From Actinomycetes bacterium (GTDB lineage Bacteria > Bacillota > Sulfobacillia > Sulfobacillales > JAIMBI01), in assembly GCA_023565505.1 (NCBI GenBank), contig JAIMBI010000002.1:124001-188000 (forward strand): a stretch of 64,000 nt of DNA, read 5' to 3'. The notes beneath the pieces are model-generated. The model saw only the letters and a list, made by a program, of their open reading frames with translations. It was not told the DNA's origin and did not search any database. A program made the translations under genes and the position numbers. Positions 6,467 through 12,235 of this stretch are shown piece after piece. Every line of letters begins with the position of its first letter. Positions within the stretch are counted from its first letter, which is position 1.

Positions 6467-7822
6467 ATGTTCGCGGAAAACGTGCCGGATCTGACGGCCG
6501 CGGTCGAGGCGATCCGCCGGGGCGACACCTCGCCCGAGGCGCTGTGGGACCTCGCCGAGACCCGTTTCCGTCGTTTCGAACCCCGACTGCAGGCCTTCGT
6601 CTACGCCGACTGGGAGGGGGCCCGGATCCGGCTGCCCCAGGCGCCGCCCGGTCCCCTTGGGGGCATGCCGGTGGGCATCAAGGACCTGGTCGACGTGGCC
6701 GGGATGCCGACCACCGGGGGCTCGCGGGCGTACCGGTGGATCCCCGAGACCGACGCGCCGGCCGTCGCCCGCCTGAAGGCAGCCGGGGCCGTGGTGGTGG
6801 GCAAGACCAACACCCACGAGCTGGCCTACGGGGTCATCACCCCGCCCACCCGCAATCCCTATGATCCGGAGCGGATCCCCGGCGGCTCCAGCGGGGGGTC
6901 CGCCGCGGCGCTGGCGGCCGGGATGGTCCTCGCTGCCCTCGGCTCCGACACGGGGGGTTCCATTCGCATCCCGGCCGCCTGCTGCGGCGTGGTCGGGTTC
7001 AAGCCGACCACCGGGCGCGTGCCCGCCGCCGGGGTGATGCCCCTCAGCTGGACCCTGGACCACGTGGGGCCCTTGGCCCACTCGGTGCGCGACGCCGCCC
7101 GCCTGTATGCCGTCCTGGCCGGCGAGCCGGCCGTGCCGTCGCTCCACCCGCCCGCCCGGGTCCGGGTGGCCGTGCCCGAAGGCTACCTGGACGGCACCCT
7201 GGACGACGGGGTGCGCCAGGTGTTCGAACGGGCCCTCGCCGTCCTGCGCGACCTGGGGTGGACGGTCGGCGGCATCGCGATGGAGCCCTGGCCGCGCTGG
7301 CGCCAACTGTTCGCGGACATCCGCGGGCCGGAGGCGTTCGTGTACCACCAGCCCCTGCTCGACAGTCCCGGCGCCGAGGCGCTCGGGCCGGCGGTGCGCC
7401 AGAACCTGGAGAACAGCCGACACACGCCGGCGGCGACCTACATCCGGGCTCTCCGCGAGCGGGCCGCGCTGGCGGCCGCGTGGGCCGAGCGCATGCGGGA
7501 CCTCGACGCGGTGGTGCTTCCCACCATCCCCGTGCCGGCACCCCCGGTGGGGGCGGACACCGTCGTGGTGGCCGGCCGGACCCAGCGGGTGTGGGAGACC
7601 CTCCTGTCGTACACCGCTCCGTGGAACATCCTCGGGTACCCGGCCGTGTCGGTCCCGGCGGGGCTGACGCCCGAGGGCCTCCCGGTGGGGCTGCAAATCG
7701 TGGGGCCGAGCGGCGCCGACCACGCCGTCCTGGCCCTCGGCGCAGCCTTCGAGGCGGCCTCCGGCTGGGACGCGCTGCCGCCCCCCTGGACGCGGCTGGA
7801 GGAGGGAGGCCGCGGCGCATGA
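6467..7822 (+). CDS. amidase (amidase signature family)
   Basis: 451-residue amidase signature hydrolase that cleaves a carboxamide to acid plus ammonia or amine. The Ser-cisSer-Lys triad is visible: Lys in '[13 protein letters not shown]', the cis-Ser in '[13 protein letters not shown]' and the nucleophilic Ser in '[16 protein letters not shown]'. The close relative GatA also has this signature, but no gatB or gatC is adjacent, and the catabolic setting argues for a metabolic amidase. Its stop overlaps the ATG of the next gene (ATGA at 7819-7822), so it is translationally coupled to the first of the two paralogous proteins of unknown function. Confidence 0.92.
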
Positions 7823-8895
7823 GTCGGTTCGAGACGTGGGAGAGCTGGGGGCCCGCCCTGACGGACGCCGACTTCGCGGCCTTCAACGCCACGGCTTGGG
7901 CGGAGGGATTCACCGACGGGCTGCCGCTCGCCGTGCCGACGCCGGCGCGCGTCGCGGCGGTGCTGGGCGGGATCCCGCCGGACCGCCCGGTGGGGCGGAT
8001 CCCGGTGCGGCGCCGCCCCGTGACGGCGCACGACGTGGCCGTGCAGGGCGCCATGGCCGGCCTGGGCCCCGGCGCCCTCGGCGTCGTTATCGCTGCCTTG
8101 GAAGCCATGCAGGTGCCGGAGTTCAACCTGCTGGGCATCGGGACGACCACCGGCTCGGCCACGCCGGCCCTGGTGGTGAGCGGGCCGGTGCGGCACCGGG
8201 CCCGCATCCAGGGCGGGGCCAACGCGTTGGGACCGGGGCCGTGGGCCAACGCGGCGGTGGGCCGGACGGTCCGGCTGGTGCTCCAGAACCTCGGGGGTCT
8301 TGCGCCGGGCACGGTGGACATGGCCACCCTGGGCCAGCCGGGGAAGTTCACTTTCTGCTTCGGGGAGAACAGCGAGGAGAGCCCGTGGCCCAGTTTCGCC
8401 GAGGCCCGCGGGTTCGCCCCGGACGACGACGTGGTGACGGTCGTGGGCGTCGCGGGCTCGCTGGAGGTGGTGCCCCACGCGGACACGGACCCCAAGGACC
8501 TCCTGGACACGTATGCGCTCGCCGGGCGGGCGGCGGGGAGCCTATCCGTCGGCGGGACCACGCTGGGCAGCGGCCAGGTGGTGGTGATCCTGCCCCCGGA
8601 GGCGGCGGCGATTCTCGACCGGGCGGGCTGGTCGCGGGCCGACGTCCAGGCCTACCTGTACGAGGCGCTGGTCGTCCCCGTGGAGGCGTTGGCCCCAGGG
8701 CAGCGTCGGCTGTGGGAGGACGCGCAGGCGGCGGCGGGCCTCGCGCCGGAGCCGGTGGTGCGGGCCGCCGCCCAGCCCGAGGACGTCCTCGTCGTCGTGG
8801 CCGGGGGGACCGGCATCAAGGGGGCCGTCCTGCCCACGTGGGGGGCGCCGACGCGGGCGGTCAGCCGGGCCCTCGACCCGGTCCTGCGCGCCTGA
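7819..8895 (+). CDS. unknown protein, paralogue of the selenoprotein C-terminal domain
   Basis: 358-residue soluble protein that I cannot assign to a characterised enzyme. It is clearly homologous to residues about 205-550 of the next gene product. Shared blocks include 'DGLPL' against 'DGLPV', 'GQPGK', and 'ENSEESPWPSF' against 'ENEAESPWPPF', plus a shared overall order and a Pro/Gly-rich C-terminus ending in 'PTWG...SRALD' against 'PTFG...TRPLVD'. No transmembrane segment or signal peptide is seen. It probably forms a complex or heteromer with its paralogue. The ATG overlaps the amidase stop. Nothing resembling it carries a Sec or Cys redox motif, so the redox role would lie in the neighbouring protein. 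Confidence 0.85.
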   Translation: MSRFETWESWGPALTDADFAAFNATAWAEGFTDGLPLAVPTPARVAAVLGGIPPDRPVGRIPVRRRPVTAHDVAVQGAMAGLGPGALGVVIAALEAMQVPEFNLLGIGTTTGSATPALVVSGPVRHRARIQGGANALGPGPWANAAVGRTVRLVLQNLGGLAPGTVDMATLGQPGKFTFCFGENSEESPWPSFAEARGFAPDDDVVTVVGVAGSLEVVPHADTDPKDLLDTYALAGRAAGSLSVGGTTLGSGQVVVILPPEAAAILDRAGWSRADVQAYLYEALVVPVEALAPGQRRLWEDAQAAAGLAPEPVVRAAAQPEDVLVVVAGGTGIKGAVLPTWGAPTRAVSRALDPVLRA

Positions 8896-8966
8896 CGCAA
8901 GCGGAACGGACAACCATGGCGGGCGCGGCGACGCGGCCGCGCCGGACGAGGGAGGAGACCAGAACC

Positions 8967-10625
8967 ATGGCAGAAGAAACGGTCATCGTCAACCCCGCGC
9001 GGGCGCGCGCGGAGACCCACCGGCACCGGGCGGCCCCGCGGGCCCCGGAGCTGGCCGGCCACAAGGTGGTGCTGTTCAGCAACAACAAGCCGAACGTCGA
9101 CCCGTTCCACGACGAGCTGGCCGCGTTCTTCCGCACCCTGCCCGGGGTGGCGGACGTCGCGGTCCTGCGCAAGCGGTCGGCCGCCCTGCCGGCCGACGAG
9201 GCGGTGGTGGAGCAGGTCCGGGACTTCGCCTTCGCGGTCAACGCCATCGCCGACTGAGGGGCGTGCACGTCGTGGAGTATCCACGACGCGGTGACGTTCG
9301 AGGAGGCCGGGGTGGCCACCTTGACCGTCGTGACCGACCGGTTCGTCAACCTCGCTCAGGCCGAGGCGGAGGCGTTGGGTCGGCCGGACCTGCGGCTCGT
9401 CGTCGTGCCGCATCCCTTCGGCGGCGTGCCCGAGGCGACCATTCGGGAGCGGGCGCGCGCGCTGGCGCCGGAGATCGCGGCGCGGCTGGTCCAACCGGAC
9501 GCGGCGCCGGCCGCCGAGCCGGACCGGTCGGCGGAACCCGAACCGCCTCCGGAGCTGGTGCTCCGGAAGGACCCGGACGAGGAGTGGGCCTGGGCGGTCG
9601 CCCGGCTGGAGCTCTCCGACGGGTTGCCGGTGGTGCTGCCCACGGCCGACCGGGTGCGGCGCATGCTCCGGTACTGCGACCGGGATCCCGAGACGCCCGT
9701 CGGCCCCGTGCCGCCCCGCTGGGCGACGGCGACCATCGCGACGCTCGCGGCCAACGCGGTCATGGCGGGATGCCGGCCGGAGCAGTTTCCGGTCGTGCTG
9801 GCGGCCGTCGAGGCCATGCTGGACCCGGTCTTCAACCTGTACGGGATCCAGGCCACGACGCACCCGGTGGGGCCGCTGGTCCTGCTGTCCGGGCCGCTCG
9901 CGGCGGCCGTGGGCGTGGCGTCGGGGGCGGGGTGTCTGGGCCCCGGGTGGCAGGCGAATCTGTCCATCGGGCGGGCCATCCGCCTCATCCTGATGAACAT
10001 CGGGGGCGCGCGGCCGGGCGTCTTGGACAAGGCGACGATGGGCCAGCCGGGGAAAATCGCGGCGGTGCTGGCGGAGAACGAGGCCGAGTCGCCGTGGCCG
10101 CCCTTCCGGGCGGACTTCGGCTACGGGCCGGAGGTAACCACCATCTCCGTGTTCGGGGCGGAAGCGCCGCACAACATCAACGACCACGGCAGCACCACGG
10201 CGGAGGGCATCCTGCGGACGGTGGCCGGCACCATGGCCACGACGGGGAACAACAACCTCTACTGGCAGGGCGACACGCTGGTGCTGTTCGGGCCGGAGCA
10301 CGCCGCCACCCTGGCGCGTGAGGGCCTGGGCAAGGAGGACGTGCGGCGGGAACTCCACCGGCGGGCCCGGGTGCCCGTGGCGGCCATGTCGGCCGAGCAG
10401 TTCGAGCACACGCGGGGCTGGGCCGTCGGCGACCGGTACGTGGACGACGCGGGGCGCGTGGCGGTGACGGCCAAGCCGGAGGAGATCCGGATCGCGGTGG
10501 CCGGCGGACCCGGCAAGCACTCCATGTGGGTGCCCACCTTCGGGCTGACCTATTCCGTGACCCGGCCGCTGGTCGACCGCACCGGCCGGCCCATCCGGTC
10601 CCTGGAGGAGGTCCGGCAATGGTAG
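8967..10625 (+). CDS. UGSC-type selenoprotein fused to partner domain (TGA at 9255 read as Sec)
   Basis: One frame of 552 residues if TGA at 9255-9257 is decoded as selenocysteine (Sec97). Residues 1-96 ('KVVLFSNNKPNVDPFHDEL' region) and the segment after the TGA (Gly-Ala-Cys-Thr-Ser-Trp-Ser-Ile-His-Asp, then 'LRLVVVPHPFGG') together form one domain matching my recollection of the 'UGSC family (seleno)protein', here with motif Sec-Gly-Ala-Cys. Residues about 205-552 are a paralogue of the upstream gene product. Support for recoding: the frame is identical on both sides of the TGA, conserved motif residues continue directly after it, a SECIS-like hairpin follows, and there is no ribosome binding site for a separate gene starting at 9291. 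ATG 8967 has GAGGGAGGAG at good spacing; ATG 8916 is an in-frame alternative. The function is unknown; Sec97-x-x-Cys100 suggests thiol/selenol redox chemistry. The Sec machinery genes are not in this window. Confidence 0.85.
9255..9288 (+). promoter_or_regulatory. recoded TGA plus bacterial SECIS-like hairpin
   Basis: The TGA at 9255-9257 is followed by a perfect inverted repeat: CGTCGTGGA at 9268-9276, a three-base loop GTA at 9277-9279, and TCCACGACG at 9280-9288. The loop starts 19 bases after the TGA and its first base is G. Both features match what is known for bacterial SECIS elements recognised by SelB (apical loop roughly 16-37 bases from the UGA, with a guanosine in its first two positions). 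The hairpin lies in coding sequence that encodes the conserved Thr-Ser-Trp-Ser-Ile-His-Asp. Confidence 0.78.
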
Positions 10626-11530
10626 GAGAGGAGGCGTCCCCGTCCCTCCCGACCCTGTCCGACCGCGACTGGGAGCGGGTCCGCGGGGCCCTGGACGGCC
10701 ACGTCCACGCCGCCCCGAGCCTGGCGCCGCGCTGGGGCGACGACCGGGAGCTCGCGCAGGCGGCCCGGGCGGCGGGGATGGCCGGCTTCGTGCTCAAGGC
10801 GCACGAGGGCGACAGCGCCGCCCGCGCGGATCTCCTGCGCCGGGAGTTCCCGGGGCTTGGGGTCCTCGGCGGGGTGGTGCTGAACCCCCCGGCGGGGGGC
10901 CTCAACCCCGCGGCGGTGGAGACGACGCTGCGCCTGGGCGGACGGGTCGTGTGGCTGCCGACGATGTTCGCGCGGGCCCACGTGGAGCACGTGGGGGACA
11001 CCAGCGGCATCCCCGGCACGGGCCGCGTACCGGGGCGGGATCCGGTGGCCCTCGTCGACGAGACGGGCCGGCCGGTGCCGGCGCTCCGGGAGATCCTGGA
11101 TCTCATCCGGCAGTACGACGCCGTCCTGGCCACCGGCCACGTGGCCGGCGCCGAGCTCGAGGCGGCGGTGCGGGCGGGACGGGAGGCCGGGGTGCGGATC
11201 GTCGTCACCCATCCCGAGTACCACGTGCCGAACCTCTCGGCCGCGGCGCAGCGGGAGCTCGCCCAGGCCGGGGTGTGGCTGGAGAAGTGCTATCTGACGA
11301 CGTTTCCCGGCCAGGGCGCGGGGGATCTGGCCGACATGGCCGCGCGCATCGCGCACATCGGCCCGGAGCGCCTGGTCCTGGTGACCGACTTCGGGCAGGC
11401 CCCCCGGGGATCCCCGGTGGAGGGGCTCGCCCGCTTCCTCAAGGGATTGGCCGAGGCGGGCGTCCCCGAGGCGTGGATCGCGCGCATGGCGCGGGACAAC
11501 CCGCGGGAGCTGTTCGCCGCGGATCGCTGA
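10619..11530 (+). CDS. DUF6282-like amidohydrolase/PHP-type metal-dependent hydrolase
   Basis: 303-residue protein resembling the metallo-dependent hydrolase fold: 'DGHVHAAPSLAPRWGD' near the N-terminus supplies an HxH metal pair, and later segments include 'ATGHVAGAE', 'VVTHPEYHVP' and 'LVLVTDFGQ', the expected downstream His/Asp ligands. I recall this pattern as DUF6282; no reaction is established to my knowledge. The ATG at 10619 overlaps the end of the selenoprotein frame by 7 bases, so the two are likely co-translated and functionally linked. A hydrolase acting on a cyclic or acylated nitrogen compound would fit the amidase and oxoprolinase genes nearby (inference). Confidence 0.75.
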   Translation: MVGEEASPSLPTLSDRDWERVRGALDGHVHAAPSLAPRWGDDRELAQAARAAGMAGFVLKAHEGDSAARADLLRREFPGLGVLGGVVLNPPAGGLNPAAVETTLRLGGRVVWLPTMFARAHVEHVGDTSGIPGTGRVPGRDPVALVDETGRPVPALREILDLIRQYDAVLATGHVAGAELEAAVRAGREAGVRIVVTHPEYHVPNLSAAAQRELAQAGVWLEKCYLTTFPGQGAGDLADMAARIAHIGPERLVLVTDFGQAPRGSPVEGLARFLKGLAEAGVPEAWIARMARDNPRELFAADR

Positions 11531-11569
11531 CGGCGCCGGAGGTTCGGCGTCGGGAGAGGAGCGCATGTC

Positions 11570-12235
11570 ATGATCGTCGCCACGCCGGACGGCGTGCTGA
11601 CCCTGGACGAGAGCTGGCGGTACGCCTGTGCCGGCTACACCGGCCGCGACCGGGCGGTGGTGCTGGCCCACATCGCCGAACTGGAGCGCATCGGGGTCGC
11701 GCCGCCGCCCACCGTCCCGACGTTCTACCGCATCCCCCCGTACCTCGTGACCGGTGCCGACCGCGTGTGGGCGCCCCACGAGGCCACGAGCGGGGAGATC
11801 GAGCCGGTGTTCATCATCCGGGCCCCGGACCGGATCTACGTGAGCGTCGGCAGCGACCACACCGACCGGCGGCTTGAGGCCCACGACGTCGACGCGAGCA
11901 AGTGGCTGGGCCAGAAGGTGATGGCCTCCGCCGCCTGGGCCTGGGCCGACGTCGGCGCCGAGTGGGACCGGACGCGCATCAGGTCCTGGGTGGAACCGGC
12001 GGGCGGGGGGGAGCCGGTGCCGTTCCAGGACGGCCGGCCCGCCGACCTGCTCGATCCCGGTTACTGGGTGGACACCTTGATCCGTCGCTACGGGTCGGCG
12101 GAGCGCTGGGTGCTCTTCGGCGGGACCATTCCCCACGCGGAGGTGGAGGGGCCGTTCCGCGCCTTCGCGGGGGAGATGGTGCGGCCCTCGGGGGATCGGC
12201 TCGCCTTCCGCTACACCGTCTCGATTCTGGACTGA
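11570..12235 (+). CDS. DUF2848 family protein
   Basis: 221-residue protein of the DUF2848 family, related in fold to fumarylacetoacetate hydrolases. Typical segments are 'YTGRDRAVVLAHIAELERIGV', 'PTFYRIPPYLVT' and 'IYVSVGSDHTDRRLE', with 'ASKWLGQKVMASAAW' following. FAH-like enzymes hydrolyse or decarboxylate oxo-acids with a divalent metal; the substrate of DUF2848 proteins is not known to me. The ATG at 11570 follows GGGAGAGGAG. It lies between the DUF6282-like gene and the oxoprolinase genes, which suggests a shared pathway. Confidence 0.82.
   Translation: MIVATPDGVLTLDESWRYACAGYTGRDRAVVLAHIAELERIGVAPPPTVPTFYRIPPYLVTGADRVWAPHEATSGEIEPVFIIRAPDRIYVSVGSDHTDRRLEAHDVDASKWLGQKVMASAAWAWADVGAEWDRTRIRSWVEPAGGGEPVPFQDGRPADLLDPGYWVDTLIRRYGSAERWVLFGGTIPHAEVEGPFRAFAGEMVRPSGDRLAFRYTVSILD

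Follow-up and report, generated by a model that had tools for sequence, protein, structure and literature searches.

A UGSC-family selenoprotein fused to a conserved partner domain, and its distant relation to the selenoproteins PrdB and GrdB

Two apparent genes in the 64,000-nucleotide stretch of DNA analyzed here (the window) belong together as one selenoprotein gene, in which a UGSC domain carrying Sec97 and Cys100 is joined to a large C-terminal domain (the C-domain); the product may well carry out a reductive cleavage of the kind known from D-proline reductase (PrdB) and glycine/sarcosine reductase (GrdB/GrdF). UGSC is itself an established selenoprotein family, to which the gene in the window adds one member. 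In 2008 these selenoproteins were recognized in the Global Ocean Sampling (GOS) metagenome, a thioredoxin-like fold was suggested for them, and a fusion to a domain termed "Unknown_1" was reported (PMC2398784). A review of 2026 still presents the family without a function (PMC13188914). What is new to specialists is the relation to PrdB/GrdB and the near-constant partner domain, which together make a testable enzyme hypothesis out of a family that had been anonymous.

An initial annotation of this DNA had spoken of a "hidden" selenoprotein. The word is apt for gene annotation, but less so for the state of knowledge, since the family and a UGSC fusion had already been published (PMC2398784). 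Of the findings that it named as refuting its reading, none turned up. Overlooked at that stage were the SECIS hairpin, the identity of the C-domain and its pairing with UGSC, a C-domain paralogue at 7819-8895, and the relation to PrdB/GrdB.

One reading frame across an in-frame TGA

With TGA translated as selenocysteine, positions 8967-10625 of the forward strand form a single frame of 552 residues that contains one recoded codon, the TGA at 9255-9257 (U97), and ends at a TAG stop (10623-10625). A Shine-Dalgarno-like GGGAGGAG, read from the sequence at 8950-8957 of the same strand, lies 9 nt upstream of the ATG at 8967. The residues GACTSWSIHDA directly follow U97, producing the motif Sec97-Gly-Ala-Cys100 that the initial annotation had proposed, with Ala in place of Ser. 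Sec97 is the predicted nucleophile of this motif and Cys100 (9264-9266, forward strand), which is kept in nearly all homologues, the predicted resolving cysteine. The UGSC domain occupies residues 7-175 (8985-9491, forward strand) and the C-domain residues from about 200 to 552 (9564-10622, forward strand). The translation is continuous and the UGSC match spans the TGA, bearing out the earlier proposal that the two apparent genes are one frame. Judged from sequence, the protein is almost certainly a Sec-containing fusion.

Standard gene calling does split this locus, as had been anticipated: one protein of 96 residues stops at the TGA, and another, of 444 residues, starts at GTG 9291. That the cell does the same is highly improbable: the GTG has no visible ribosome-binding site and sits inside the UGSC domain (both points had been made in the initial annotation and both hold), the family match and the predicted fold cross the TGA, and both the TGA and the SECIS hairpin described below are conserved. 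Gene-annotation pipelines that break the gene there miss its active site.

An in-frame stop in a draft assembly, and nothing beyond it, would fit a pseudogene or a sequencing error for TGC or TGG, an explanation that is more improbable still. In the source genome the TGA stands at the same codon in four loci, each on its own contig, and it recurs in about 90 homologues; past codon 97 a further 455 codons stay open, with conserved residues among them. Because the same TGA occurs in four independent loci of one genome, sequencing error is excluded. Genome-wide reassignment of TGA, for instance to Trp, would likewise place an in-frame TGA within a conserved gene, but it is vanishingly unlikely. 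TGA otherwise serves as an ordinary stop in the source genome, where it terminates most open reading frames neighboring the UGSC loci; homologues have Cys, never Trp, at position 97; and the genome encodes tRNA-Sec along with SelA, SelB and SelD.

Selenocysteine machinery

The source genome (3.12 Mb in 49 contigs) contains all four of the genes, selA, selB, selC and selD, that the initial annotation had named for a genome search. The tRNA-Sec (selC) scores 74 bits and is called by ARAGORN as SeC(tca), while SelA, SelB and SelD score 490, 357 and 367 bits, respectively. SelD (L018; source genome G000, contig C41, 15678-16604, forward strand) has an in-frame TGA of its own that encodes Sec within the motif SGUGCK. 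A contamination of 6.6% is listed for the assembly; since the UGSC loci and the sel loci are alike in GC content (69-74%), neither are likely contaminants.

Within the genomes of the organism's phylum, selA accompanies TGA-bearing UGSC genes in 9 of 10 genomes and is present in just 1 of 9 genomes that have only TGA-free copies (Fisher p 0.0011). The exception among the former is G207, in which selA was not detectable despite a TGA-bearing UGSC gene. Of the UGSC copies in this genome (loci L029 and L046), one has the TGA and three lack it, and it is possible that Sec decoding was recently lost there or that selA falls in an assembly gap.

The source genome also encodes a PrdB/GrdB-like selenoprotein (L178; contig C7, 221355-222002, forward strand), with an in-frame TGA and the motif U-P-V-C. 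It scores 113 bits against TIGR04483, under the cut-off of 300.

The SECIS hairpin

Immediately after the UGA, and within the coding sequence, the transcript can form a SECIS-like hairpin (9268-9288, forward strand) with a 9-bp stem and a GUA loop at 9277-9279. The loop, A-GUA-U with its flanking bases, lies about 19 nt past the UGA, and the minimum free energy (MFE) is -22.8 kcal/mol. Over 46 nt the folding z-score is -3.4, and none of 200 shuffled sequences folded equally well; longer flanks weaken the z-score to between -1.3 and -2.4. The bacterial SECIS model set out in PMC13188914 calls for a loop of 3-9 nt with a G in its first two positions, a stem of 4-16 bp, a distance of 16-37 nt from the UGA, and an MFE of -7.5 or lower; the hairpin in the window falls within all four of these constraints.

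The pairing is also conserved. Among 26 distinct homologous sequences, selected by the authors to cover the breadth of the main group, pairing holds in 89.7% of cells, double changes occur at 5 of the 9 pairs, none of 500 shuffles matches the covariation score, and sliding the pairing partner destroys the signal. As the stem is coding sequence, a control by synonymous recoding was run on 90 sequences: on average 7.5 of 9 pairs are observed against 5.3 expected, and the window has 9 of 9. A minority UGSC subgroup that was left out of the covariation set (L026, L028, L030, L044, L045, L047 and L051) has a different hairpin after the UGA, in another register around GCTGGT...ACCAGC, possibly a different type of SECIS. 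An Rfam scan over 8900-9600 returned no element; evidently Rfam holds no bacterial SECIS model suited to this hairpin.

The UGSC family

Membership in the UGSC family, which the initial annotation had suggested, is borne out by a PF24696 match of 147.9 bits (gathering cut-off 25; E 4.2e-43) that runs over residues 7-175 and profile positions 2-171 of 172, with the TGA inside it. The Sec or Cys followed by G-x-C that marks the family is found as U97-G-A-C100. Against the equivalog model NF041046 (UGSC_fam) the fusion protein scores 111.8 bits, under the cut-off of 125, whereas another copy in the source genome, L021, passes with 136.2 bits; the fusion is filed under the Pfam family rather than the equivalog because of this sub-cut-off score. 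The likeness to described members (PF24696; NF041046; the "UGSC-containing protein" of PMC2398784) extends over the whole domain and includes Sec-G-x-C, the TGA with a SECIS downstream, and the N-x-K and HP motifs. The protein differs from them in having Sec-Gly-Ala-Cys instead of Sec-Gly-Ser-Cys, in its lower NF041046 score, and in the fused C-domain. The Ala at residue 99 recurs in homologues, namely L053, L104 and L110.

The four UGSC loci of the source genome, on four contigs, have one TGA each. Three are fusions (the window, L022 and L024), and in the fourth, L021, a separate UGSC gene lies beside a separate C-domain gene. The three UGSC selenoprotein loci outside the window correspond to L021/L195, L022/L196 and L024/L197.

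Beyond this genome, a scan with the C-domain over one genome per bacterial and archaeal species produced 80 loci, distributed over Rokubacteria, Chloroflexi including SAR202, Alpha-, Beta- and Gammaproteobacteria, Methylomirabilota, and others. With PF24696, UGSC turned up in 20 of the 398 genomes scanned from the organism's phylum, and several of these carry 3 to 7 copies. At the standard motif position, homologues from several phyla have Sec in 90 cases, Cys in 9, and Trp in none, in line with the check that the initial annotation had suggested. Divergent members have Sec within other motifs, such as GGU-TAC and GGU-DGC. In the organism's own class UGSC rises above the cut-off in only 2 of 122 genomes, and given this rarity the genes may have been acquired laterally, which would not affect their decoding.

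The C-domain

Residues from about 200 onward match no Pfam or NCBIfam family. The C-domain adjoins or is fused to UGSC in nearly all loci examined with the C-domain as bait, and in the phylum scan with PF24696 it accompanies UGSC in essentially all loci. For the converse, a C-domain with every UGSC, the latter scan is the basis, since the C-domain was itself the bait in the former. On the strength of this adjacency and fusion, the two are probably functional partners. The UGSC/Unknown_1 fusion from the GOS data, shown in Figure S1A of PMC2398784, likewise joins UGSC to a conserved domain with a conserved Cys, and Unknown_1 is a likely candidate for the same domain.

A second C-domain paralogue often follows in homologous loci; the one in the window lies ahead of the fusion and has a gene of its own (7819-8895, forward strand; 358 aa). 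The best-conserved C-domain positions, in the numbering of the fusion, are G219, P225, T256, G268, G309, N331, G335, R336, D354 and E370 (125/125), along with G513-G514. Cys269 was considered as an essential catalytic residue and is doubted in that role, being absent in about 14% of members, two from the source genome among them. The idea that the C-domain is a PrdA homologue was rejected after profile comparison with PrdA (P 0.59).

Predicted fold and relation to PrdB/GrdB

An AlphaFold2 model of the fusion (pLDDT 93.2, pTM 0.93) places five strand-helix units in the UGSC half, with Sec97 between a strand at 89-95 and a helix at 98-113. UGSC is thus predicted to be a five-stranded parallel alpha/beta domain, which is at odds with the thioredoxin fold that the literature assumes. 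Foldseek comparison of the two predicted models, of the fusion and of PrdB, against the PDB gave nothing below E 1e-3 for either, the weak matches of the fusion model being flavodoxin- and Rossmann-like domains, and searches of PDB sequences yielded no credible match for any of the four profiles used (fusion, C-domain, UGSC and PrdB).

At their Sec motif, divergent UGSC members weakly match NCBIfam models for PrdB (E 3e-5), GrdF (9e-4) and GrdB (0.005), and for this reason UGSC was compared with a PrdB/GrdB profile built from genomes of the organism's phylum. In this single pairwise comparison hhalign reports a probability of 97.4% and P 1.4e-11 over about 83 columns, from the Sec motif to the C-terminus, against P 0.004 to 0.013 for reversed-profile controls. 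The alignment sets Sec on Sec, Cys on Cys, and HPxGG on HPLG. The PrdB model has a strand at 141-145, Sec148, a helix at 149-164, and then strand, helix, strand and helix, the same order as the UGSC model. From the profile match, the matches of divergent members and the shared predicted order, we conclude that the Sec-bearing half of UGSC and the Sec domain of PrdB/GrdB are distant homologues. We have not seen this relation stated in UGSC passages of open-access papers that name UGSC together with glycine reductase.

The likeness to PrdB and GrdB/GrdF (TIGR04483, TIGR01917, PF07355) comprises Sec-G-[TS]-C after a strand and at the start of a 16-residue helix, frequent use of Sec, the E-x-x-GIP and HP-x-G motifs downstream, and one adjacent partner gene. 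As for differences, UGSC scores far under the family cut-offs (the fusion protein has no above-cut-off match to any of these three models), its N-terminal part is not alignable, and it is paired with the C-domain instead of PrdA/GrdE, which has a pyruvoyl-forming Cys.

The literature view would make the same selenoprotein a thioredoxin-fold thiol oxidoreductase that reduces disulfides or peroxides, with the C-domain as its redox partner. The UxxC motif agrees with this. Yet the confident model has five strand-helix repeats in parallel topology, which is not the thioredoxin order, no thioredoxin appears among the 50 best Foldseek matches, and the UGSC profile is related to PrdB/GrdB; moreover, the conserved C-domain Cys269 is missing from the members mentioned above. 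We therefore regard a thioredoxin-type enzyme as unlikely and favor the PrdB/GrdB-like reading.

Two groups of proteins bear mention beside this comparison. The Cys-containing UGSC fusions L033-L037, with the motif CGLCTxKETGSS, score best against PrdB/GrdF and are possible intermediates between UGSC and PrdB/GrdB. In L172 and L173 (genomes G052 and G091), PrdB lies in open frames of ~650 codons with an in-frame TGA, seemingly fused to a PrdA-like part.

Proposed mechanism

The substrate of D-proline and glycine reductase sits on a carbonyl group (pyruvoyl in PrdA); after Sec has attacked carbon, cleavage of the Se-C bond gives a selenenyl-sulfide (PMC10298544). Cleavage of the C-F bond of fluoroacetate has been proposed for a GrdB-like protein (PMC10838667). 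In the window, the SECIS hairpin would recruit SelB carrying Sec-tRNA, and the UGA would in this way be read as Sec. By analogy with the reductases, the Sec97 selenolate, at the N-terminal end of its helix, would attack a substrate held largely by the C-domain, Cys100 would resolve the adduct to a selenenyl-sulfide, and a cellular dithiol would reduce the latter. Overall, the reaction would be akin to the reductive C-N (or C-X) cleavage carried out by D-proline reductase and glycine reductase, and the C-domain would take the part of PrdA/GrdE. We give roughly even chances to the specific proposal that Sec97 and Cys100 reductively cleave a substrate bound to the C-domain.

A broader and more tentative view, which we hold to be possible rather than probable, is that UGSC with its C-domain constitutes a third class of selenium-dependent reductive cleavage beside glycine reductase and D-proline reductase. 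The C-domain would then be a new subunit that binds or activates the substrate and has no detectable relative of known fold. The class would extend across several phyla, among them groups commonly regarded as aerobic, and in some genomes it would have multiplied into copies specific for different substrates.

Gene neighborhood

Among 104 flanking proteins from 23 loci no constant third partner was found. The neighbors include alpha/beta hydrolases (7), CoA-transferase III (6), molybdopterin enzymes (4) and hydroxyisobutyrate-type dehydrogenases (4), and without a constant member the neighborhood does not name a substrate.

In the window, an amidase gene (6467-7822, forward strand; PF01425, E 1.8e-97) lies upstream, probably in the same operon, and its stop overlaps the ATG of the C-domain paralogue (ATGA). 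A DUF6282 gene (10619-11530, forward strand; PF19799, E 2.4e-64), whose ATG overlaps the end of the fusion gene, and a DUF2848 gene lie right downstream of the fusion (10619-12235), again probably in the same operon. Also in these surroundings are genes for a carboxyltransferase (CT_C_D/CT_A_B), LamB/YcsF, an amidohydrolase and an acyl-CoA dehydrogenase. This setting suggests catabolism of an amide or lactam, and the amidase, 5-oxoprolinase-type and acyl-CoA genes around the fusion make a small organic catabolite the probable substrate. CT_A_B and CT_C_D genes are also found near the separate UGSC and C-domain genes of L021.
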